Assembly (NCBI RefSeq): GCF_031877795.1
Contig: NC_133948.1
Coordinates: forward strand, 11,950,948-12,014,947
Direction of reading: 5' to 3'
DNA: 64,000 nt
Source: Strix aluco
Taxonomy: Eukaryota; Chordata; Aves; Strigiformes; Strigidae
This document shows positions 1-63,919 of the stretch, piece by piece (positions within the stretch are counted from its first letter, which is position 1; each line of letters opens with the position of its first letter). The notes beneath the pieces are model-generated. The model was not told where the DNA came from. It worked only from the letters and a program-made list of their open reading frames with translations, and did no database searches. The position numbers and the translations under genes are program-made.

Positions 1-627
1 ATGAACTGGAAGAGAATTTGATACACACTAACCAGTTTCTCAGCACTCTCCTGAAACTACTGTTCACCAGAAGTTCACCCATATCGTTCTCTTTTCACAA
101 CCCTAAGTCTGCAGCACAAAGCCTACCCAGCTAGAAGTTACCAGCTTAACTACTTCACAGATCCCTTTTTAGCAATTCTCTGCATCACAAGGTGCAATAA
201 TGTGTCCAGGCTAACCATATCTACTGCACAAAGCAATGCACATATGCAAAGAGGTGGCATCAGGCTTGTGGTAAGAGAAGACCACCTGAGGAAAAAAATA
301 GAGCACCAACAGGCTAAGGCATGGCAACGTCATGCATGAGAGCTTGGCTTCTCATTGAATGAGCTAACTCTTCTGATTCTGATTCCAGCCACAGCAGCAT
401 GGGATACTTATTCCAGGTAAATTTAATTAGTTCAAGAATAGCAAGGTGTTAACAAGGCCATACTATTTGAAATTTGAAACAGTACGTTGGTCAGCACTGT
501 GCTTTATGTATGGATTAGCCACACAGATACACATATACCCCCAACTTGCTTGGGATTGTCTCAGAGTCACTCGATGGTTCAGATAAAACTCAAACTCAGC
601 TTCTCACCCAACTAAAAGCTGACTCAC

Positions 628-28153
<27,526 letters not shown>

Positions 28154-29478
28154 CTTGAATTCCAGTTCTTCTCAGGTGCTTTGCGTAAAAACAGTTGAAG
28201 ACATCTTGCATATCTAATATGGAAATGGAAGCAAACACAGATCTCTTGTCATCGCAAAACCATTCTTTCCGCTCTGTGCATGAACAATGTCGTTCCACCA
28301 CATAGCCAAGAACGCCACACCTGAAAGGCAGGCACGTTACAAAGCTTAATAAACATCAAACTAGTAGTAACGACCTCTTCTACCAGCACTCCTGACAGAG
28401 AGCTAGTACCGCTCTCTAAAGTCATATCTGTTATATTTCAAGGACAATTTCTGAACCGTGTGTTAAACGCATTAAAATAATACCCAGACTTACACCCCTT
28501 GCCAACTATATCATCTGGTTTTGCCACTCCATCTCTTTCACACATCGTTTTCCACGTCTCAAAGACGCTGGAATCCTCAAGCAGGTGACCTCCCACTGAC
28601 GCCACGGAGCTGTACCCAGCAGAGGGCAGCGCTACAGCGGTACATCAAAGTTTGACGCACTGGTTTGTTATTTTGTCTTAACTACACCAACCACCGCATT
28701 TTTTTTTCCTCCTGTCACTTTCATTTAAAATAAAGCATATTTCAAAGGAGGAGCTTTACTTTTACAATTTACTCTTTTTAGAAGTGCATTTAAACTGGAA
28801 ATTATCAGTGGGAATAAGATTTTATTCATAAAACTACAGCCACATTATTAAAAGCTCTTCTAGTTCTTCCTCTTACACCAAATCAAAACAGAGGAACTTA
28901 AAAGTATGCCTTTCAAATAGACTAAAGTATTGAGCTTGCAGATGTGCTTTTCAGAAAGTCGATTCAATTACTGAGCTACAAAGGCATGGTGGGAAAAAAC
29001 CCAGACATCCAAAGTTTGTTAAACTGTATAAACCCTTCGAACTTGGAATTGATGGGGGTCTGGAAGAACCAGACACGCGGCCGCAGCGGGTGGGTCAGGC
29101 CTCGCCCCGGGGCCGCCACAGGTACGCGGGGCCGGCGGGTCCTGCCCCACAGGGTGGAAGGGAGCGCGGATAAACCCGATGCCTCTACCGGCAGCTCTCC
29201 CGCCTGCAGTCATGGACCCGGCCGCGGAACGCCTGGGCTTCTTCAGGCGCACATTCGCAAAATGAGTTAGAGGAGCGAAGCGAGGCGCCTGGGGCTCTCC
29301 CCCGGAGCAGCTCTCGGGGCGGTCTGGCAGCGGCGGGGGCCGCGGCCCTCGGGGCGGGCGGAGGGGGGGGGGGCGGTACCGCAGAGCGAGCAGCGCGGCG
29401 GCCCCCGGCAGAGCCCCAGGGAAAGGGGAGCGGGGGGCGGCGCGCAGCCCGGGCGCGGAGGGAGCTCGGACGCCTCAC

Positions 29479-29740
29479 CGCTCGCCCCTCCGGCCGCCGC
29501 GGGAGCAACCAGCCCCCCAGCAGCGGCGCCAGGGCCGGCCTCCCGCGGCAGGCCGGGGCGCGGCCCCACCCCTTCCAGCAGCCGCGGGGCGAGCGCGGAG
29601 CCCTGACCTCCCGGTGCCGTGTCCCCCGCCGGCAGCCGGCCGCAGCGGCACCGTCCCGACGAGACACCGACACCACCCCCCAGCCCGTCGGGCAAGCGCT
29701 CGCCACTTCCGCATCCGGGGCCGCCGGGCCGGCACGCGCG
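29479..29740 (-). other. DEPDC5: Candidate DEPDC5 non-coding first exon
   Basis: The start codon sits in a separate exon about 1.3 kb downstream, so a leader exon in the CpG island is expected, as in mammals. The best donor I see is GAGCG|GTGAGG, with the exon edge at 29479. The transcription start is unknown and the right edge is a guess. Confidence 0.35.
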
Positions 29741-29885
29741 CGTCACGTGACGCGCCACAGAGCCGGGGAGGGAAGGAGCGGAGAGGGCCGGGCCGACCCG
29801 GTGCGTCACGGCGGGCGGAGCCATAACAACGGCCGGCGGGGCTGGGCGGGCGGGCAGCGGGCCCGGATGAGGAAGTGATGTGAGT
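29700..29885. promoter_or_regulatory. Bidirectional DEPDC5/PRR14L promoter core
   Basis: Between the predicted first exons there is no TATA box. An ETS/GABPA-like CACTTCCG lies at 29704-29711, a CLEAR/E-box palindrome at 29738-29755, a CRE-like TGCGTCA at 29802-29808 and a second ETS-type GGAAGTGA at 29871-29878. This is typical of a housekeeping divergent promoter. Start sites are not mapped. Confidence 0.7.
29738..29755. promoter_or_regulatory. Palindromic CLEAR/E-box site
   Basis: An 18-bp perfect palindrome, GCGCGTCACGTGACGCGC, centred on GTCACGTGAC (29742-29751). That 10-mer is the consensus bound by TFEB/TFE3 (CLEAR) and by USF. It sits in the shared promoter of a lysosomal nutrient-sensing gene. 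The sequence match is direct; use by TFEB is inferred. Confidence 0.7.
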
Positions 29886-29967
29886 GGGGAGGGAGAGGGT
29901 GGGCGGCGCGGCGGGGCACGGCACGGCGGTGCGGGAAGCAGCGGGGCCGGCGGCCGCTGCCGCTGAG
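29850..29967 (+). other. PRR14L: Candidate PRR14L non-coding first exon
   Basis: The PRR14L start codon is in an exon with a clear acceptor at 31352, so a leader exon upstream is needed. CGCTGAG|GTAACG gives a plausible donor with the exon end at 29967. The 5' edge is a guess. Confidence 0.4.
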
Positions 29968-30029
29968 GTAACGGGAGTAGACTGCGGGGCTCTGTGGGGC
30001 GCGGACCGCTACTGCTGTTGGGCTGCGGA

Positions 30030-30061
30030 GCGGGGGGTCTCCGGCGCGGGGGGTCTCCGGC
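30030..30061. repeat. Perfect 16-bp tandem duplication
   Basis: GCGGGGGGTCTCCGGC occurs twice head to tail in the CpG island, in the predicted PRR14L first intron. Each unit carries a six-G run. Confidence 0.9.
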
Positions 30062-31396
30062 GCGGGCCCGCCTCTTCCGCCCGCCGCCGGTTGGGAGTGG
30101 GCAGCGGCCCCCGAGGCGGGGCGGGGGGCGAGGGGCTGCCAGCGGTGTCCGCCCTGCCCGGGCGCGGTGGGGGCTCTGCGGCGCCGAGCCCGCTCCCTGC
30201 CCACCCCGGGGGAGGCACCGGCGGTTGCATAATTACCGAGAGCGGCGGCCTCCTCCGGTGTGCTGCCTCGGGGCGGGTGCTGACCACCGGGGCCGGGCCG
30301 AGCGGATCTCGCTGTGCAGGGTCGAAGCGGGGGCTGGTGCCCGCGAAGGAGGAGAGGGCTCCGGGGCTGCGCCTGCCCGCGCGGCGGCGACGCTCCGAAC
30401 AAAGGCGCGGCCCCGGCCCTGCCCGCAGCCGCCGCTCCCGCAGCGCAGGGCCCCGCGCCGAAGCTGCAGTCAGTCGGTGTCGCGGGGAGGGTGGTCGCCT
30501 CCTAAAGACAAGGGTCCTCGCGTATCCCCGTGAGGCTGGCGCAAGTGAAGCCCGTTGTCCCCACAGGCTGGGTGCGCTTAGGGAGCGGGGGGATCAGCGC
30601 TCGACGAATAAGCCCGTGTTCCTGTAAACCGAGTAGCTGGTGCTCTGTAAAAACCCAGCTTAGCCCCTTCCTGTTGGTGCGGGCGCCTTCAGGAGCGGGT
30701 AGACTGCAGCGTTTTCGTCACAGAGCTTGTGTCCGAGCAGTCGAAACCACCCTGCCCCGCGGGCCCCCGCTGCCCCAGCAGGGACCCGGGCCCGCCCGTC
30801 TGGGCTGAAGAGGATCCCGGCACCGGGGCTGTGCGGAAAAGCAGCGCTGGCACAAGGCATCCTGCGTACACGCCTGTCGGGTGCTTGTATGAGAGAAGCT
30901 GCAGGCACAGTGTATGATGGATGATGTCTTAGCGTGCCTTTGAGGCAGAAAACATGAAGAAAAGTTGGGGTTTTTTTCCAAATATTAGAAACTTAAGCAA
31001 ATCACAGGAAAATAAATGATGCCTTAGGTTTAGATAAGGAGTAGATGTCTGATACAAGCCCCAGCGACTTGCTTTATAGTCTCTTTTCAGGTTTTCCAGA
31101 AGATGAGGTTATATCTCCAGGAAGACGTTTGAATGTGAAAGTGAGGTTTAGGAATATATTTGTCCATACTCTCAGCTCTTGTTAATGAAGCATTTGCTTA
31201 GATACTCAAAATGTTTCTCGGCTCCTTTCTTAAAAAAATTTTTGTAAGTATCTTTCTTAAACATATGCTTGAATCTTGAAGAATGAAGCTTTTCCTTTTA
31301 ATCTGGAGATTACTTCTATTTACGTTGATCTAACATTGCTTTTATTTTTAGGGTAAATTGTGGCAAGCTCAGGACAACCAATCTCTAACTGCCCTG

Positions 31397-47096
<15,700 letters not shown>

Positions 47097-52799: not shown

Positions 52800-52855
52800 T
52801 TAGCTGTCATTTGATGAGGATGCACAGATATCCTGTTTGCAGAAGTCTAAGATGC
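52800..52855 (-). CDS. Transferrin-like exon 17 (C-terminus)
   Basis: GILDFCKQDICASSSNDS then TAA (52802-52800). The two cysteines match the C-terminal Cys pair of transferrins. Acceptor TTGTAG. Short and soluble, with no hydrophobic tail. Confidence 0.9.
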
Positions 52856-55800
52856 CTACAAACCAGTAAGAAAGTATACACTTAAAGATGCTTTCAGCTT
52901 TAAAAATAACAAATTCTTCAGGTACTATTCACTAAAACAGTAGAATAGAGGTAAAATTCCCTTTCTGAATTGCAGTTCTTTAACAACTTGGACTCTTCAT
53001 TTACTTCAATCTGAATTTTCAGATCCCAAAACAGCTTGACCCTGGCTCATAGACAGTTTTAGTGATAGCTAAATGCATACTTCATACAGCTTTCTGTGGA
53101 AAATAATGAAAAAGCTATCCCTTAAGTTTATAAAGGTTTTGATCTTGAGTTCTATAGTGCGCTCTTTTTAAAAAGGAAATTATTTAACTTATTTTGAGGT
53201 TAATTCAAGAATTAAATACAAAATTTCTTATCTTTGGCATAAGTTTGGCATATCCAAATGAATACAACATTCCCTTTCCCCAGAACTAATATTTGGAATT
53301 GAAGGGGAAAATCTCAGAGTGGGAATAAACCAGTCCTATTTCAATAACCTCATATTTGCTCTGAGATATATTGTTTATTCTCTTCCTGCAGAGCTCCAGT
53401 TTCAGTGCTTTTGGATAGGAGTTCTAAGAGGCTCTAAAGGAGCTCCAAACACAGTACTCCTTGGAAAATTGTTGCTAACAGGATTATGTAGAAGGTACTT
53501 CTCCTTTCAGTCTAAACAACAGGGCAATAGCTATGCACAGAAGGCTTCCTGCTTTGCATTTTTCTCTAACTCAAAGAACTTGATGTTACCTGCAGGTGTG
53601 CAATTAAACACTGATTCTGCCAGCTGAAAGAAAGACACTCCAAGAATCTCCTGATAGCTCATGTGACTTGCATGAACAAGGTACTGAGTAGTATCTTTGA
53701 AAAGCAGATCGCTTCCACCATACTTCCACGACTGGAAAAGGTGGAACTCAGAATCCAGTTTGCTTCCCAGAGATTCCTAAACAGAAAATAAATAAGTTTC
53801 ACAGCTTGGATCATAAATAGAAAGGTTAAGTTGGTGACCCTCAGTTTTATAGAAACATCTAGCAGAAAAAAGGTTCTCCTTTCACTTAGCACTGTCCTTA
53901 TTCATACAAAAAGATGCAGTTGTGCAGCAGCTTATTTCTCAGCAAAAGTATGACCACTACAGAATGGCAGCTGGTGCCAAAATGCCCCTTTAGAGAATCC
54001 AACTAATTATTTCTCAATCTCCTACGCACATTCTTAATTCTTTCATATTGGACCTGAAGGCACTTTACGTACTTAGTATATAAAGCTTTTGATCTTGAAA
54101 GGGTTTTTAGCAGTCGTACATAACAAGTGATAACACGCTAGCTTTTTCCCTGTTACCTGTCTTACCTGGGATTTCATTAGAAAGTCATAGATTTTGGTGA
54201 CAGTGACTGGTCGAGTCATGACGGTGCTGGGGGGAATCGGGCCAAGGTTACAGCCTGCCCATTCTGTGACTGCAGCACGTGTTCCGTCCGGACACAAGAG
54301 TTCAAAGTCAAGAGGGGTGTAACCTTTTGCCCAACCAGAGCTGTCCAAATCTGAAAAGAAGATGAAGTGAAAACAAATCCTTTTAAAAAATGAAAGCAGA
54401 AGACATGGTGAATCTCATGCAAAATGTTAAAAATTGAGAGGAAGAAGTTTAGTTAATATGTTCAAAACAAATGCAGCATGCTATGTCAGCGTTTATTAGG
54501 AATGCTTAAGAAGCAGGGTAGTGTTTTCACTGAGAAAACAGTCAGTGAACTTAAACTGCACCTATCAACTAAAAACTAGTAATATCAAGGCATGCAAACA
54601 GCTTATCATGCCTCATTTTCATCTGTAATCAGACTGCTTTCTGAAAACAATTCAGCCTGCATGTCCTTTGCTCCCGCAAACCAATTGCTTATTGCTTCAT
54701 GAATTCCTCTGCGTTTCCAAGCTCTTATACCTCCACTTGATTTTAGAGGTTCCTCTCTTAGAAAAGTCTCTTCTGTCAGTGAAATTGCCTAAATTAGAAT
54801 TTCAGTGTGCTTTATCAGGCTGAACAAAATAGGGGTTCCCTTTCTCTTCAACTCTATGAAAAGGCAGCATATTTTGGCTGTTACAGCAGTAGGTATAATT
54901 TAAGAGACTGAGGAGATTTAAGCTACTGTACCCAAAACCATTTTCATCACCAAAATCCAATTGCTAGACTGTTGCAAAGATCAGTATTTCCCAGGGGAAA
55001 TTAAACATTTCACAGTGTACTAACAATGTTGTTTCAGAAAGTGTGAAAGGCAAAATAATTTGTAGTACTTTTACCTATTAAACTATTTGGACTGCTTATT
55101 CCAGAAATGCCTGTGAAACAACATGAGGAAGCTGTCGTGTCATGAAGAAGCCATAGAACATCTCCCAGCACAAGCAGCCCACAGCATCGCCCTTATCTGC
55201 TATTTTTATTCTTGAAACTCTGATTAAAAACAACGGGTACATGCACTATGGCTGCCTATGGGAGAAGGTCTGGTGGGAAGTCACTTGCTTTTTAAAGCTG
55301 TGAGCTTTCCAAAAATTAGTGCAGTCTCCAAGGATGATTACCCCCCCAGCACACACATTGGTCTTTGCACTCAGTGCAATTCCTCTTTCCTCTCCAAAAC
55401 TGAACAGTATCTCAATTTTGAGCTTGACTGGAACACCTACATGCGGGAAGGTTCTTGCAGTTTTCCAGTCACAAACACAACTTCATGGACCTAGATTAAA
55501 CCTGTAAGAGCTGATCCTTGGGAGTGATGGTCACTGTGTAGGAAGTAACTGACACTAATGAACATTCTCAAAGGAAAAGAGAATATCTGCATCTCACTCT
55601 CTATGTTCTGGAGTAGGTTAGAGTGTTCCAGGAAAGCTACATCTCCAAAGCTTCTTCCACTGGGATTGCCAACTAGGCACCTAGTGCAGGAAAAAAAACA
55701 AGAAGGTATCAGACACAGCCACTACAGGATGGCTGACATTTGGACGGTCATCTGAAGCTAAAACAGGAGTAGCTGGAAGTATCCCTCTTGTCTGTAATTA

Positions 55801-58800
55801 CTTGGTTGTTATATGGAACAAGTTAGTGATGTCAGTATAGATCTCAGTGGACAGTGTTCATGTATTTGATAAGACAATCCCTTTCATCTCTTAAAGCAGC
55901 TCTCAAGTCAAAGCTGTGGCACAATGTCCATGCAGACTCACCTGTGCCTAGCCAGGAAAGAGAATGTAATTCAACTAAATGCATTACGTATATATATTTT
56001 ATAAGAGTGCTTTCACCTTGTTGAAGACAGAGGCAGTATTCTTCTCTGCCTGTCTTCAGCTATTTTTTTTAGTATCTCCAGTCTATTTAATTACCTCCTG
56101 TACCCTACACTGCTTCTTACCACATCACCTCTGCTCTCTGACCTTCTAACTACCTTCATCCCTTCCCTTTAATGAGTCTGTATCAATACTCTAAGCCTTA
56201 TATATTTGGGAGCATTGTCTTGCTCTGGAAAGGGTTTCATAACTGGTTTAAATCATCAATCAGGTGAACATCCCATAGCAACTGCAACAAAACCAAAACA
56301 CATGCTAGCAAAAGTTTATACAGACAGTTGCTTAACAAAAAAACCCAAATTCCAAAGAAAACCATCAGCAAAGTAATAAACCAATTCTGGCTATTGCTCT
56401 GCATTTCTGACTCTGACAAAAAGCTTACCTGAGTGCTCCCATATTGCCATAGTAACGTTCGTTGTGACTTGCAGCACATCTGCTAGATACTCGAGCCCCT
56501 TCCACCTCACTGTCTCCAACGCACACCTTGCACAGGTTTCCATCTGCTCCTGGCATGCACCCCTTCCAAAAGTAATTCTGATAAACTGAGTAAAGAAAAC
56601 CGAGGTGAGATTAAGGTAAAGTATTTCAAAGCCTCTTCACACATAGGAAAAGACAGGCATGGAATTCCATCCTAATAGCTATCAAGAAGAGGGCTAGTGT
56701 CAAGAATTGCTCATAGTCAGGTAGGAGGAAGAGCTGCTTCAGTACCCTCTGAGACAGCAATCATCACTTGCTGGTCAAATCCTCATGGGCCCATCCATTT
56801 TACTCCCAAATTTGGGGCTTCAGATCTCCATGGCCTAGTCAACAGATAACCCAGAGCAGCCCTTACCAGAGTCAATGTCACAGTTCTCAGTATCATTCTC
56901 CAGAGCTCCCACTGTGTATCTAGAAAGAAGTAACCATCCTCCAGGACTATACAGGTGACTGTGGCAGGATCGCCTTCCCCTGAGGTTATGGATGTTAATC
57001 TGTTTGGCGTTTTTCTTAGCTAGGGCAACAGCATAAACAGGTGGCAGTGCTGTAAAACAATGACAACAACCAGTTATACCAAGGCAATTAAGTATTCCAG
57101 AGAGGTACAGCCCCCTCTTCCCTCCCTCATCCTGTCATGATATGTTCAGTTACAGTACAGGATCTGCACTCTTTGCTTAGCCACAAAGCTCTTGTCCTAG
57201 CTGCCAGGCATTATCTATAAAGCTCCTACTGAACATGCACAGCAAGTTCTTTCCCAAACAAATGCAAATACATTCCTACATAAATCCTGGAGGCAATCTC
57301 AGGAAAATCTAAATCTTTTGCCTTCTCAAAGTTGTCCTGTTACCTTTGCGCTTAACATGAATTAGTTTCCCTGTTTCTTCCAAGCTCTCAGCAGCCGGGG
57401 CACAATCCCTCCCTGGAGAGGAGAGACAATGGTTAAGGATCCTGCAACTGCTGTCATTCCTATTACATGGCAGCACCCCATCAAAAGCCTCGCAATCCTC
57501 TTGATCCAGGTCAGCATCTCTGTCCCTTTTACAGAAGAGATATAACAAACAGCCAGACCAAATGCTAGAGCAAATCAGTGGAAGAGCTGGGAAGAGTATT
57601 TGGACATATATATTGATTCCTCCTTCTATCACAAAACACCAAAAACTGTGGAAATTTAACTACATTCTTCAACGGTACTTTTTTGATTCCCCCCCTTCTT
57701 GCTAAGGTCACGTGAGAACTTACCATAACATTCTACAGCCACAGGCACCAATCCACACCTCCCTGCAATGTAGACGTGTGTTGCATCCAGGGTGACTGCA
57801 TCAGCCTCACTACTCTGCCAACAGCATTATAGAAGATAACAAAAACAGGATTCGCATTAATTGTGTAACCAAGCAGCTGTACTTTCCCACTGGTTGGAAA
57901 TTCCCCTGCATAAATTTGCTCTCATTCCCACTGGTTCCTCTCGTGTACAAGCTGGTTTTCCTCTTGTTCAGCTCAGACAAGGACATACACACCCTCTGTG
58001 GTCTTACCATATACTCTGACCAGAGGGAGTCTCCTACCTTGATCATTTCAATGCATTTGGTCATGGAAGTTGTTTGGACACAGACCAATGGGTCGGATTT
58101 GATGCTCAGTGCCCACTCCTCACATTTGTGAAGCTCAGCATCACTGATGCAGCACCAGCGCACAACACTGTTGTCCAAAGAGCTCCCTGAAATTGGAAGG
58201 AAGGAGCACAGTGAGATCATGTCACCTATGTGCCAATCTGTTCTTTGTAAGGGGACATTTAGGTCTATGCACTTGTGCCTGGCAGGGAGGAATTACATAG
58301 AAAGAGAACTTTTTCTTCCCTTTGCTTACCTACAGTCCTCTAAATGGCTCCTCACCTTCGTGGCCTAGTCCCTTAAGGAGAGCTACATAATCCAGACCAA
58401 GGACATAGGCAATCTCTAGCTGCTCCTCAAGAAGCTGCAGGTGCTGAGTGGCATCCCGGAACAGCAGGTTCTTTCCCCCAAAGGGCGCTGAAGTGAAGAG
58501 TTCAAACCTGGCTCTTTCCTTTCCTTTTCGCCCAAAGAGGCGCTAGGACAAGAACAACACTTTTAATGGCAATAAATCTGCTCATCCTTCCAGTAATAGG
58601 CAGCCTCATCCTTCCCTCCCTTCATATCAATGGTTTGTAACATAACACTCAGGGTTCCATCACACTGGGACAAAGCCCACAGGCACTGCAGTGAGTGGAT
58701 GGTTCCAGTCCTTAAAAGCATTATAGGATTCACTTTTTTGAAGATTTTTTACCTATCTTAGTTATTCCAATTTACTGGGCTCTGCTCAATGTCTCCTACC

Positions 58801-61800
58801 CTGGAAAGGCAACTGAGGGAGTATAGCTGAGTGAGAACCACTTGTGATAAAGATCAGCACAGTAAAGGGGTACAGGATATCTTGTGCTTTATGATTGGGA
58901 AATACCACGTGCAAAGTACCTCTGTTCTGCCTGATGATACTGGAAGAGAAGCAAGCACTGAGAAGTGTACTAGGAACACTGCTGCACAGCCACTGCTATG
59001 TATGGGGGAACACAGCTGAGGTATGTGTTCATAAGTGCACAGACAAAGGCACAGGAAGATCTCTCAGTAGAGATTTGTACAACTGCTATCTACCAGAGTC
59101 CGCGGGACAGCACAACCCAGCCCACTGGGTTGAATTATTCACTGGCTACTGGACTATTTTAAGGGCCAGATGGCTTCATAGATTCTTTAAATTTGCACTT
59201 AAATATGCATTTCCAGTTCAGCTTAAAATAGAGTCCTGGATGTCAAGGTAACAGATACTATTTATAAGTTGAGAAAAAGAGAGGAACAAAGGTGAACGCT
59301 GCCTGAACTTATGCGTCTCCCTCAGCTACATAAGAATTCATGTAAGTTCCAGGGCAGGATGAACATCATCAGCCATTTTCCAGCTTGGGTGTTATGGCAT
59401 CTTCCCCTTCTTTATTTACTTATTCCCAACCTTCCACAGAGGAACACTTTAGAGAAAAGTAGAACCTTCTTCCAGAAGCCAATGCAGGATCCTTGCCCAG
59501 AACAACCAATTTTTAGTGCTTTGTTCACACTAACTATAAATTTCTCAAGAAAAAAGGCAAACTGGGTGGTAATATCCAAAGATGGAATTAAAACCTGTGT
59601 CTGGAGATACACAATTTACAATGTCCACTCACTTGGACCATGTTAAGAAATTTGTTGGTGATCTTCTGGAAGTTGTGGCGGGTGACGATGCCACGGCCAG
59701 GTCCCTTGCCCAAGTTACAGGTGCTGTATTCAGCCAGCTCAGCTGTAGTCCCATCAGGACATAAGAGTTCATATTCCTGTTGTTCTGACTCTGAAACAAG
59801 AGGACACTCATGAATCTATGAAGTGAGACATGACTTGGCAGCAGGCAGAGATGGAAGGTAAAACATTTTTCGGAGAAGGTTGCTCAAAAGATTATGCAGG
59901 CAGCACAGTGTAGCAAGCACACTTGAGAAAGTTGTCTTTGATATATTCTTCTCTTAACAAAGAGAGGGATCTCAGCCAGAGGTATTCCAAAATACTCTTT
60001 AAGTTGTACCCCTGTAAATATGTTTGTTTAAAAATACTTACCTGCAAATACTACTGCTAACCACCTTCAAAAACATCAGTACAGAGCTTGACTGAGTTTA
60101 AAAATACAAAACAGGTGTACAGGAACTGCGCGTTCTAGCACCTCAATACACTGAATTTTAAAAGGAATCTTGTAACTCAGGCAATGCAAATACTGACAGC
60201 TACCTCAGAGACTTTAGGCTTGAGAAATCACCTGTATAAAAACATCTGTCTTCTCCCATTCTAAATCTCCTGTGAGCAATTATTGCTCACTTAGTCTTTC
60301 CTCTTCTGTTTCCTTCTGACTTGCATAGAGAGACAAGAAATAACACTGAACTGCTTGCAGGGATTGAATTTTCCCTGGAAACAACAAAAATATAGGCATA
60401 TCCCCCAAACTCCTATGCAGGAAAGGGCATAGCCAGAGGTTAAAAGGAATCTGAGTTTTTAGGATTACCTGTGGCACCCATAATTGTTAAATGATCTAAA
60501 AAGGCAACATCTGCCACTCCATTCTTCAAGCACCTGCAGGAAGACAAATGCCAGCCTATTAACATGTCACTTGGCTTTTCCTCCCTTGAAAGTTCTTTTT
60601 CCCCCAGGTGAATTCAGTACCAGTGTCACAGAGCTCACCTGAAGGCTCCCTCAGAGTCATAGAAGGGTTCGTTACCACTTGTCTCACAGAAGTGGTTCTT
60701 GTCTCTGACATAGGATTTTTGTCCTTGGCAGAGAGCACACAGTCGAGGAGCAGCAACACCAACCCCAGGGATGCAACTTGCATTGAAATACTCACTGATT
60801 ACTGCGGGGGGGGGGGGGGGGGAAGAAAGAAAAAAAGTCAAATGGGAAAAAATGGAAGAAGGAAAAGGGGCCAAACATATCATTAACATAACTAGGACTG
60901 TGGTGCTTAAAAAAAAAAAAAAAAAGATAAATCAGCAAATGTGGTTTCATTGTCTAATTGTCAAATTTGAAACATTTGCTGGAAACAGAGTGATCAAATT
61001 TCACTTGTTTAAAACCATCTTTGTGCTGGTTAGATATTGAAAAGAATTGTTCCCTGTTGCATACAAAACAAAAGATTTCCTCTTTTGGTAACAATTCTGC
61101 TGCTTTGAGGTCACTAGAAAAGTTCTGACAAGAGCTAAGAGCCAGTAGCAAAAACACTCCAGGAGGATATCTCAATCGCAAAGCCCTTCAGCTTCCACAC
61201 AGCTCTGTTCATCCTACATCTGCTTGCATTTCACTCACTTTTGCTGAGGGCAGAAACACAGCCCTACGGCTCCTATTACCCACCTTGGCTCAGAGGCTGC
61301 GCCTCATCCCAGGAAAGATCATTTCTTGCAAGGAGAAAGCCAAGTGGAATATTCCAGCCTGATGTCCATCTGGCTCCATTGTGGCAGCTGTGTGCACCTC
61401 GTAGCCTCTGGATATCCAGAGTTCCTCGTCTGGCAATGGCCACAGCAAACACGCAATTTCCTGCAATAGCACAAAATATGTAACAGAAATAACTAAATCC
61501 CTATTCTACCGCTTCCATCTGTGTACAGGAGTTCAACTGCTTCTGTGAACATGGCTAAGGAAAAAAAACTCTTAGGTGCACGAAAAATAGGCACTTATGC
61601 TTTACTATATACTGGCTACATGGCACCTTGTCAGACTGAGTGATGCAAGTGATGTGCAAAGCAAGAATGTAAAAATCTGGTGGAAGAGGCTTACAGGATC
61701 ATCCAGCTCTGTCATGCAATGCAATTGCTGCTTAAGAATTTTGAACGTTTGTATCACACTGTTTAGGTATTGTAATGGAAAGAACTCCTATGCCATATCC

Positions 61801-63919
61801 TCAGAACATACTTTCCACCTGAAACATATCAATTCCACTAGGATTTCATGGTTCTTCAGCCAAAACAAAATTCACCTCTGTTCCCATACTGTCCCTTATT
61901 AGTCTCTTCCTACATTTATCTGCTAATTTGGCTTCCTTCTCAGATTCCTGTCGCACAAGTATTTTCTACTGTATGCTTGATTTTGGCTCAGATTTATTTA
62001 TTCTTGCCTTATAAATCATTCATTGCACAGACTGTTCAGGTCTTCCAGGAATGAAGAGGAATCTTACCATAACAAGATTCTTCACCTTATATTTGTGTCT
62101 CTTTAGGGTGAGAAGGAGAGAATTAATTAATGAGAGAAGTTAATCTCTTAAAGAACTGCTAGTAAATATTCAGTTACACTAGCAAAGAGCATGGTATAAG
62201 AATTGACACCGATAGGATAAAGCCCTTCTTGCAGGCTGTAGAACTCCAGTACACTTGTGCTGCAGGTAGCAGTAGATGCAGACAATTTGTCATAGTGACA
62301 TTACCACAGGCAGAAAGGCTACTAGATACAAAGTACCACTGGTATTTTATTCATCATCACTTAAGTATTTTAGAAACAGTTGTTAGTCACCTCCATACTC
62401 TTATGAAGTTGATGAAAACATACAGACTTTTTGTCAAGAATTCTTGAGCTGTGCCTTTCACTGCACAGCAATTTATTAGCCAAATCAGAAGTACAGTTTA
62501 TTCTTTTGCTTTATGAACCTACCTTGATCATAGATCTCCTTTGCCACCACTGTCAAACCATAGAGCTTTACAGCAGAGTAAACATCTCCAGCATCCAAGG
62601 AGGCAGCATCTGCTTTATTCACCTTAAAAACAACAGCAAAACCCTCAAAATAAATGTGCTTACAGGGAAACAAACAGAGCAGCTTCAAGAACAGAGTTTC
62701 TGCCTGAGAAGTAGTAACCAGTGATTTTTACAAGCATTTGCTTTGTTTTTAAATGAATCCCTGCTACTAAGCATGGTGAAACGTTACCAATGAAGGCTGA
62801 GTTACATTCAAAAAATACCAGTTCTTTTCCAGTAGCATCCTTTCTCACCTCTTTTTTGGGTCTTGCATTCCAAAAACTCAATTCTGATGCCGACTGAAGA
62901 GAAAAGGCAACCCCTATTTCCTCCTACTGCTCCCCCAAGACCCCAAATCCTTCTCAGAGTTCTCCTGGCTATAATCTTTCCATAACCCAGAAAGTGGAAC
63001 TGAAATTTATTAACAAGGGTTGCAGGACTGAATGAAAACACAAAATAAATTATTCCCTGAACCAACAAGAAAGGTTTTCTTTGTTTTGTTTTCCAGGTCA
63101 GATTTGGACTCCATTGAAGGCAGCTGGGACTGAATGAAAATGGAAACTGAAATTCTCTATTCCAATCAAGTTTTAGGTATGTTAATGAAATTATTACATG
63201 GCAAATGCTTATCTTCCTTTTTCATGGGTGATTTTTTTTCAAATCATATAGCATTATGACAATTTCATTTCAGAAATGGACAATTATAAGAGCTTACACT
63301 TACAAAAGGTTTGATATCTAATTTTATTCAAATTAAATATATGAAAAAAGGCTTTGCTCCTTACTTCAGAAAAGACTGACTAGGGGCTAAAACTAGCAGG
63401 GAAGAAAGGGAAGAGAAAATATTCATTATAGTCGGAGTAGGACCAAAACCCACGAGCAAGGGGAATGCTCTGAGCAAGTTTTAACTTAGCAGTTTGGTTT
63501 TGTCCATTTATTTTCAAGCAGCTTTTTACTTATTTCCTGGAGATTGAAAGAACATTAGCTGGGGTAAAATAGTACATCTAGTAGAATGCTCACGGGGTTT
63601 AATTCTTGCCTCTCAAGGTACTGTGTATATGTGTGTCATATATGCAATACCATCACTTCAGTATCATTTTATTCTCCTATGGATTCTGTTTACCAGTTAG
63701 CTCTTCAAAAGAGGATTGGACTCAAAATCGGTTTTAAAAATCTCTGTGAACTCACCCTGATTTTATCAATGCAGTCATATGTATTGTGGGCTCTGATGCA
63801 AGAAATCCTAGCGAACGAATTGACAGTAGCAAGGGGAAGCACAGCCATAAGTGCTTTGGACAGTTCAGCACACTTTCTCTGTTCTAGGTCAGAAAGGGTG
63901 CACCATCGGAATTTCTTCC
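52800..63919 (-). CDS. Transferrin-family secreted protein with degenerate iron sites (lacks exon 1)
   Basis: Sixteen minus-strand exons join in phase to 723 complete codons, matching exons 2-17 of the usual 17-exon transferrin gene. The signal-peptide exon is beyond the right edge. The N-lobe opens KKFRWCTLSDLEQRKC and the C-lobe opens VVRWCCISDAELHKC. Lobe cysteines, GWNIP and LLFKD motifs are present. Compared with human serotransferrin, each lobe keeps only the Asp ligand. N-lobe: Tyr95 is Val, Tyr188 Ser, His249 Arg, Arg124 Trp. C-lobe: Tyr426 is Val, Tyr517 Asn, His585 Ser, Arg456 Ser. It ends DFCKQDICASSSNDS with no GPI or membrane tail, unlike melanotransferrin. Three N-glycosylation sequons are visible. 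Introns show no thyroglobulin-type insert as in frog saxiphilin. The exact orthologue is unresolved; a ligand other than iron is an inference. Confidence 0.93.
53590..53776 (-). CDS. Transferrin-like exon 16
   Basis: ESLGSKLDSEFHLFQSWKYG, then SDLLFKDTTQYLVH and LAESVFNCTPA. Matches the C-lobe LLFKD block; NCT sequon. Acceptor TTTAG, donor GTAACA. Confidence 0.95.
54166..54350 (-). CDS. Transferrin-like exon 15
   Basis: DSSGWAKGYTPLDFELLCPD, then CNLGPIPPSTVMTRPV. The His585 position is Ser. Acceptor TTTCAG, donor GTAAGA. Confidence 0.96.
55598..55680 (-). CDS. Transferrin-like exon 14
   Basis: CLVGNPSGRSFGDVAFLEHS then NLLQNIE. Carries the GDVAF block, with about five extra residues before it relative to usual C-lobes. 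Acceptor ACTAG, donor GTGAGA; phase agrees on both sides. Confidence 0.9.
56429..56585 (-). CDS. Transferrin-like exon 13
   Basis: VYQNYFWKGCMPGADGNLCK, then SHNERYYGNMGALR. The Tyr517 position is Asn. The acceptor is ACTCAG at 56586; the CAG eight bases further in breaks phase. Donor GTAAGC. Confidence 0.93.
56867..57049 (-). CDS. Transferrin-like exon 12
   Basis: ALPPVYAVALAKKNAKQINI, then LRGRRSCHSHLYSPGGW. The Tyr426 position is Val; Thr452 and Arg456 are Ser and Ser. NDT sequon near the end. Acceptor TTACAG, donor GTAAGG. Confidence 0.94.
57344..57412 (-). CDS. Transferrin-like exon 11
   Basis: GRDCAPAAESLEETGKLIHV then KRK. This is the variable loop before the YFAVAV strand, poorly conserved across the family. 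Supported by the CTCCAG acceptor, GTAACA donor and exact phase. Confidence 0.85.
57724..57814 (-). CDS. Transferrin-like exon 10
   Basis: SSEADAVTLDATHVYIAGRC then GLVPVAVECY. The Asp of TLDAT is the equivalent of Asp392 and is retained. The acceptor is GGCAG at 57815; a TAG six bases further in gives the wrong phase. Confidence 0.92.
58038..58186 (-). CDS. Transferrin-like exon 9 (start of C-lobe)
   Basis: SSLDNSVVRWCCISDAELHK, then CEEWALSIKSDPLVCVQTTS. The inter-lobe hinge runs straight into the C-lobe VRWC motif. Acceptor TTTCAG, donor GTAGGA. Confidence 0.95.
58356..58542 (-). CDS. Transferrin-like exon 8 (end of N-lobe)
   Basis: RLFGRKGKERARFELFTSAP, then GKNLLFRDATQHLQLL and VLGLDYVALLKGLGHE. 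Matches the RLFG...LLFKD...YLGxxYxxA block. Acceptor TCCTAG, donor GTGAGG. Confidence 0.95.
59633..59790 (-). CDS. Transferrin-like exon 7
   Basis: EYELLCPDGTTAELAEYSTC, then NLGKGPGRGIVTRH. The His249 position is Arg. Acceptor TTTCAG, donor GTGAGT. Confidence 0.95.
60469..60533 (-). CDS. Transferrin-like exon 6
   Basis: CLKNGVADVAFLDHLTIMGA then T. Matches the CLKxGxGDVAFVKH block of transferrins, with Val-Ala in place of Gly. 65 nt, acceptor CTGCAG, donor GTAATC. Confidence 0.94.
60639..60801 (-). CDS. Transferrin-like exon 5
   Basis: VISEYFNASCIPGVGVAAPR, then NEPFYDSEGAFR. The Tyr188 position is Ser. NAS is a glycosylation sequon. The acceptor GCAG is preceded directly by 17 C (gene sense). 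Donor GTGAGC. Confidence 0.93.
60806..60822 (-). repeat. C17 homopolymer serving as a splice pyrimidine tract
   Basis: Seventeen G on the plus strand read as C17 in gene sense, four bases from the exon 5 boundary (C17-GCAG). It forms most of that acceptor's pyrimidine tract. Confidence 0.85.
61284..61460 (-). CDS. Transferrin-like exon 4
   Basis: GNCVFAVAIARRGTLDIQRL, then SCHNGARWTSGWNIP. The Tyr95 position is Val; Thr120 and Arg124 of the carbonate pocket are Asn and Trp. Acceptor TTGCAG, donor GTGGGT. Confidence 0.94.
62523..62622 (-). CDS. Transferrin-like exon 3
   Basis: VNKADAASLDAGDVYSAVKL then YGLTVVAKEIYDQ. The Asp of SLDAG is the equivalent of iron ligand Asp63 and is retained. 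Acceptor TTTAAG, donor GTAGGT. Confidence 0.94.
63756..63919 (-). CDS. Transferrin-like exon 2 (N-lobe start)
   Basis: Reads KKFRWCTLSDLEQRKCAEL and ISCIRAHNTYDCIDKIR. The Cys pattern matches the start of transferrin N-lobes. Acceptor CTACAG, donor GTGAGT. The first codon is split with an exon off the right edge. Confidence 0.93.

Follow-up and report, generated by a model that had tools for sequence, protein, structure and literature searches.

The 64,000-nucleotide stretch of the Strix aluco genome analyzed here (the window; C18:11950948-12014947, on contig C18, one of the 202 that make up a 1.41-Gb genome) carries an intact transferrin gene that has lost nearly all of the residues by which transferrins hold iron. 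The gene lies on the minus strand, from 63919 down to 52800, in 16 coding exons with 16 AG acceptors and 15 GT donors that join into a single open frame of 723 codons followed by TAA. Exon 1 lies 2.4 kb past the right end of the window (C18:12017317-12017368); its 52 bases encode MKTMILIVLIIFTLLSS and the first base (G) of a Gly codon and are followed by GTAAGG, in a phase that fits exon 2, giving a complete product of 741 amino acids from 17 exons and 16 introns. Two stretches of this protein, corresponding to the two lobes, match the transferrin superfamily (PF00405; 471.5 bits, E 1.9e-141). Residues are numbered from the first full codon within the window, Lys1 in exon 2 (63756..63919), and the C-lobe begins in exon 9 (58038..58186). 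Exons 6 (60469..60533), 8 (58356..58542), 14 (55598..55680, with its donor at 55598), and 16 (53590..53776) complete the frame together with the exons described below, and exon 17 (52800..52855) supplies the C-terminus, CKQDICASSSNDS, before the TAA stop. As judged by eye, the residues of exon 1 form a hydrophobic signal sequence, and the C-terminus is hydrophilic, ending CASSSNDS; a membrane-anchor tail was looked for there by eye and none was seen. A signal sequence combined with a hydrophilic C-terminus predicts that the product should be secreted rather than membrane-anchored.

Metal sites and intactness

The protein was aligned with nine relatives, namely this bird's own TF (serum transferrin or ovotransferrin) and MELTF (melanotransferrin), both spliced from contig C9, and seven PDB sequences: chicken and duck ovotransferrin, horse and human lactoferrin (LF), human MELTF, and the saxiphilins (Sxph) of Nanorana and bullfrog, the letters of the thyroglobulin stretch of the latter being taken from an entry that differs, as far as printed, only in a C-lobe pocket residue. 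The TF and LF rows make up the five iron-binding rows. In this alignment, the N-lobe columns of the iron ligands Asp, Tyr, Tyr, and His read Asp64 (exon 3, 62523..62622), Val91 (exon 4, 61284..61460), Ser196 (exon 5, 60639..60801), and Arg255 (exon 7, 59633..59790), and those of the C-lobe read Asp397 (exon 10, 57724..57814), Val445 (exon 12, 56867..57049), Asn549 (exon 13, 56429..56585), and Ser623 (exon 15, 54166..54350). The carbonate Arg columns hold Trp119 (exon 4) and Ser475 (exon 12), and the anion-site Thr columns hold Asn115 and Ser471 in the same two exons. The first-pass annotation, which had described an intact bilobal transferrin deprived of iron chemistry, had named the eight residues at the ligand positions and the two at the carbonate Arg positions. 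The 16-exon frame and the nine-relative alignment bear out its coordinates, its number of exons, and each of the ten residues it named: no Tyr or His ligand falls at the named positions, only Asp is left in each lobe, and the carbonate Arg is replaced in both. Its wider description agrees with the open frame, the signal exon, and the retention of just two site residues.

Those two residues, both Asp, are what remains of 12 site positions, compared with 166 of the 275 other residues on which all five iron-binding rows agree (Fisher p = 0.003). The contrast is significant, though modest given how far the protein as a whole has diverged. At the same 12 positions, the number of residues retained is 3 and 2 in the saxiphilins, 9 in each MELTF, and 12 in every TF and LF row. 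The N-lobe Asp is among those retained in each saxiphilin, so the two Asp residues here have probably been kept for structural reasons. It is of note that in this bird's MELTF (C9:16667735-16684314, minus strand) Arg replaces the N-lobe iron His that human MELTF keeps, and Gly and Gln stand in for the Asp and His of the C-lobe; the iron site in the N-lobe of this MELTF may be altered as well.

Loss at the metal sites stands against the retention of the disulfide framework. The protein keeps 26 of the 27 Cys residues that are invariant in the five iron-binding rows, whereas of the other residues invariant there it keeps 142 of 260 (p = 5e-6). Of the 137 residues on which all nine relatives agree, 116 are unchanged. 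The one Cys lost is Tyr675 here, which we take to be one end of a human TF disulfide whose partner is also missing. Extra Cys residues, which no TF, LF, or MELTF row (seven in all) has, occur at positions 90, 350, 416, and 421. In simulated neutral decay, the chance that no stop would arise was 46% at 1% change, 2.4% at 5%, and 0.05% at 10%. The simulated decay and the selective Cys retention together argue for selection until recently, without pointing to any particular strength of it, and it was in this indirect way that the first-pass claim of constraint found support, its claim of a kept disulfide framework being carried directly by the Cys count. On this evidence, the gene would appear functional, and a pseudogene is unlikely.

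Neighboring genes and place in the family

The transferrin gene has DEPDC5 and PRR14L on one side and PISD on the other. A DEPDC5 exon lies in an open frame at 607..876 on the minus strand, where five of five distinct matched PDB sequences are DEPDC5 (E 8.7e-50 to 8.9e-25). The neighbor that we take to be PRR14L has an uninterrupted giant exon of 1930 codons on the plus strand (34614..40403) and a C-terminal part (46797..47093, plus strand) whose match to the Tantalus domain (E 2.9e-7) scores 30.8 bits against a Pfam cut-off of 32.8. Between the two, at 29000-31000 of the window, lies a CpG island (GC 0.59-0.79, CpG observed/expected 0.76-0.92), possibly a shared head-to-head promoter of DEPDC5 on the minus and PRR14L on the plus strand. 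On the upstream side of the transferrin gene, a phosphatidylserine decarboxylase gene lies about 26 kb beyond exon 1 (C18:12043535-12047180, plus strand) and, since no other was detected in the genome, was taken as PISD. Of 140 open frames of at least 60 amino acids in 30 kb of sequence on this side, the 10 that were scanned gave no Pfam family, and a further gene between the transferrin gene and PISD is possible. Two GC-rich segments in that interval (L009:5600-6600 and L010:9400 to L011:430), which contain long open frames and gave no Pfam matches, are perhaps promoters of PISD or of another gene. Within the window, an Rfam scan returned no matches at the gathering score, and the six tandem-repeat rows all fall outside the transferrin gene. 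In human, DEPDC5, PRR14L, and PISD are presumably neighbors with no transferrin between them, which fits loss of the gene in mammals.

At least three transferrin loci were found in this genome by a six-frame Pfam search: TF and MELTF on contig C9 and the present gene on contig C18. The same search, itself a lower-bound count, showed no fourth locus resembling a monolobal otolith matrix protein (OMP). The protein is 37% identical to this bird's TF, which for its part has 80.3% identity with duck ovotransferrin and 77.9% with that of chicken. Trees were built from four overlapping data sets (two alignments and each lobe alone), composed without mammalian TF and mICA rows. A clade with TF was rejected in all four (p 0.0007-0.025), as was a clade with LF (p 0.010-0.034), and the tree tests together with the 37% identity rule out a recent duplicate of bird TF. 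The free tree places the protein on the MELTF side of a group of TF, LF, and Sxph (support 95/97.6), a position that, the tree being unrooted, equals that of a sister to TF+LF+Sxph.

In gene structure, each of the 15 introns from exon 2 to exon 17 agrees with its TF counterpart in phase and lies no more than three alignment columns from it. The intron that creates the small exon 11 (57344..57412), in the loop spanning exons 10 and 11, is present here and in TF and missing from MELTF, in a comparison that runs to the end of the MELTF reference and thus stops short of the last intron. A run of about 10 N-lobe residues that MELTF retains is missing here, as it is from TF, LF, and Sxph. These features speak for a position outside the MELTF side; the tree alone is compatible with either. 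A novel transferrin clade of non-mammalian vertebrates was described by Mohd-Padil, Mohd-Adnan, and Gabaldon in 2013 (Mol Biol Evol 30:894); it is reported to occur in fish, amphibians, and sauropsids, to be absent from mammals, and to stem from an old duplication followed by accelerated evolution. The present gene most likely belongs to this clade, a putative assignment, and its lineage has very likely been described already. Among the papers listed by our literature searches, with most subscription literature outside their reach, none dealt with this gene in birds.

A proposed non-iron role and its alternatives

Taken as a whole, these observations lead us to favor, with moderate confidence and from sequence evidence, a functional secreted bilobal transferrin paralogue that would be unable to bind ferric iron in the manner of transferrins and that represents an old lineage with a non-iron binding role. 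According to this reading, a vertebrate lineage separate from both TF/LF and MELTF would have been kept in this bird at the DEPDC5-PRR14L-PISD locus, its bilobal scaffold would no longer close on Fe-carbonate, and the secreted scaffold may bind or sequester a non-iron partner, be it a small molecule or a protein, in plasma or in a secretion. Parallel roles would be those of saxiphilin for saxitoxin and of mICA for carbonic anhydrase. Because nearly all of the iron-holding residues are lost, the protein probably binds something else; by analogy, the new ligand or carrier role proposed in the first-pass annotation is plausible, and its broader wording of a new ligand, carrier, or structural role would be a fair inference. 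The likeliest contact surface would be a remodeled mouth of the C-lobe cleft: the exon-11 loop exceeds its counterparts in all nine other rows in length and lies opposite the Tyr558 loop of saxiphilin in the alignment, which makes this region a first guess for the ligand site. We place more weight on an iron-dead, secreted protein of an old lineage than on a small-molecule carrier.

Several points weigh against this reading. The branch leading to the protein is very long (1.6 changes per column), which makes its placement uncertain, and in the free tree it falls on the side of MELTF. The comparison comprises a single sequence of this lineage, that of the present bird, so that membership of the 2013 clade is putative and the loss of ligands is known from one species. 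The binding role is predicted by analogy only.

The lineage could alternatively be that of amphibian saxiphilin, the bird orthologue having lost the thyroglobulin domains, or never having acquired them, and serving as a "toxin sponge" for another alkaloid or toxin. The pattern of ligand loss is the same; Cys90 (exon 4, directly preceding Val91) and Asn549 (in place of the second C-lobe Tyr) are common to both saxiphilins, and all seven TF, LF, and MELTF rows lack them; Cys716 near the C-terminus recurs in both saxiphilins and is absent from this bird's TF, the LF and MELTF rows being too short to reach it; and in the approximately unbiased (AU) test a clade of the protein with Sxph was never rejected (p 0.103, 0.097, 0.374, and 0.087 in the four overlapping data sets). 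On the other hand, the free tree prefers the MELTF side over Sxph in all four data sets, the saxiphilins group with TF and LF (95/97), and unique states are shared in 15 of 149 columns with Sxph as against 19 of 103 with MELTF (LF 5 of 70, TF 7 of 93, the chicken TF row being left out). The states in common with saxiphilins may be convergent, since both branches are long and ligand-free. The extra N-lobe stretch of saxiphilins, which we take to be thyroglobulin type-1 domains, corresponds to the site of intron 3 (61461..62522, minus strand), where none was found in three minus-strand frames read by eye; of 29 Thyroglobulin_1 matches in the genome, none lies on contig C18, and a domain hidden in that intron is thereby ruled out. 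The saxitoxin site is gone as well: just 1 of 12 mapped pocket positions is identical, and Glu540 is Val here. In this mapping, Glu540 comes from published reports, Tyr558 is assumed to be the position that varies between PDB entries, and the other pocket positions are likewise assumed. The loss of these pocket residues rules out a saxitoxin binder of the known sort. For scale, two reports on saxiphilin (PMC13376186, PMC12022044) give an affinity about 2000-fold lower for Glu540 changed to Ala. Orthology with saxiphilin in a wider sense is a possible but less likely alternative.

The remaining alternatives concern the fate and the use of the protein rather than its descent. If the gene had only recently been freed from selection and were heading for loss, its frame being open by chance, the very long branch and the disappearance of ligands from both lobes would be accounted for, and a 46% chance of no stop at 1% neutral change is compatible with a very recent release; however, 741 codons and 16 introns are intact, that chance falls steeply at 5% and 10% change, and cysteines and family-invariant residues have been selectively retained, which makes such a course quite improbable. 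The protein could also act as a biomineral matrix component of otoconia or eggshell, both of which birds produce: fish OMP, an iron-dead transferrin, is expressed in otoliths, and its knock-down shrinks those of zebrafish (PMC3125230). That protein is, however, described in the same source as monolobal, with the neighbors Senp2, Tra2b, D2hgdh, and Slitrk3, as opposed to the bilobal product and the DEPDC5/PRR14L/PISD neighborhood seen here, and the carbonate Arg is gone from both lobes, so that we consider a mineral role equally improbable. A soluble mimic of apo-transferrin, acting solely as a decoy through binding to a receptor or a microbial receptor and holding no ligand in its cleft, would make use of a secreted bilobal scaffold without an iron site; with 37% identity to the bird's own TF, it appears a slightly more distant prospect still.

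The favored reading, that of an old secreted lineage without transferrin-style iron binding, is a useful lead rather than a shock, because iron-dead transferrins are an already known kind (saxiphilins, OMP), a context missing from the first-pass framing. Such proteins illustrate how a metal-binding scaffold can be reused, for a toxin in saxiphilin, for mineral in OMP, and for an enzyme in mICA. With 17 exons intact and both metal sites dismantled, the bird copy offers a clean system for the function of the non-mammalian transferrin lineage, and the same gene lets one ask whether the loss of ligands is old and shared or recent. In poison birds, toxin resistance of pitohuis is possibly due to unidentified sponge proteins, according to PMC8348241, and in light of that proposal a bird transferrin that is secreted and iron-free merits testing. 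The boldest extension, to which we give a low probability, is that a whole vertebrate lineage, present in birds and not in mammals, dropped iron in both lobes, kept the fold, and serves as a general extracellular sponge or carrier for a ligand other than a metal. If true, the protein would be a natural candidate for the proposed toxin sponge, as a solution parallel or sister to that of saxiphilin; if it is a plain plasma paralogue, it would still be a third bird transferrin beside TF and MELTF.

Comparison with known transferrins

With TF and ovotransferrin, the protein has in common two lobes, the disulfides, and introns matching in phase and place, and it differs in that every Tyr, His, Arg, and Thr of the metal and anion sites is replaced and a TF clade is rejected. 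MELTF is its nearest relative in the tree and its best PDB match by a score summed over three overlapping stretches. MELTF is nonetheless a separate gene in this genome, without the exon-11 intron and with 9 of 12 site residues kept, and it presumably has a GPI (glycosylphosphatidylinositol)-anchored C-terminus, whereas the C-terminus here is hydrophilic with no membrane tail. mICA is a bilobal transferrin with a non-iron role, acting on carbonic anhydrase, and in this it resembles what is proposed here; its similarity to the present protein is lower, at 364 bits compared with 387 for ovotransferrin and 381 for LF. Fish OMP is likewise iron-dead, the cod protein being reported to have lost its key residues except for one Tyr (PMC3125230), and the single lobe and different locus of OMP rule out that the present gene is an OMP orthologue. 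Saxiphilin is similarly bilobal with its iron residues mostly gone, and differs at an identity of 37.1% (Nanorana) and 35.2% (bullfrog). With the non-mammalian clade of 2013, the gene has in common that it is a further vertebrate transferrin beyond TF and MELTF.

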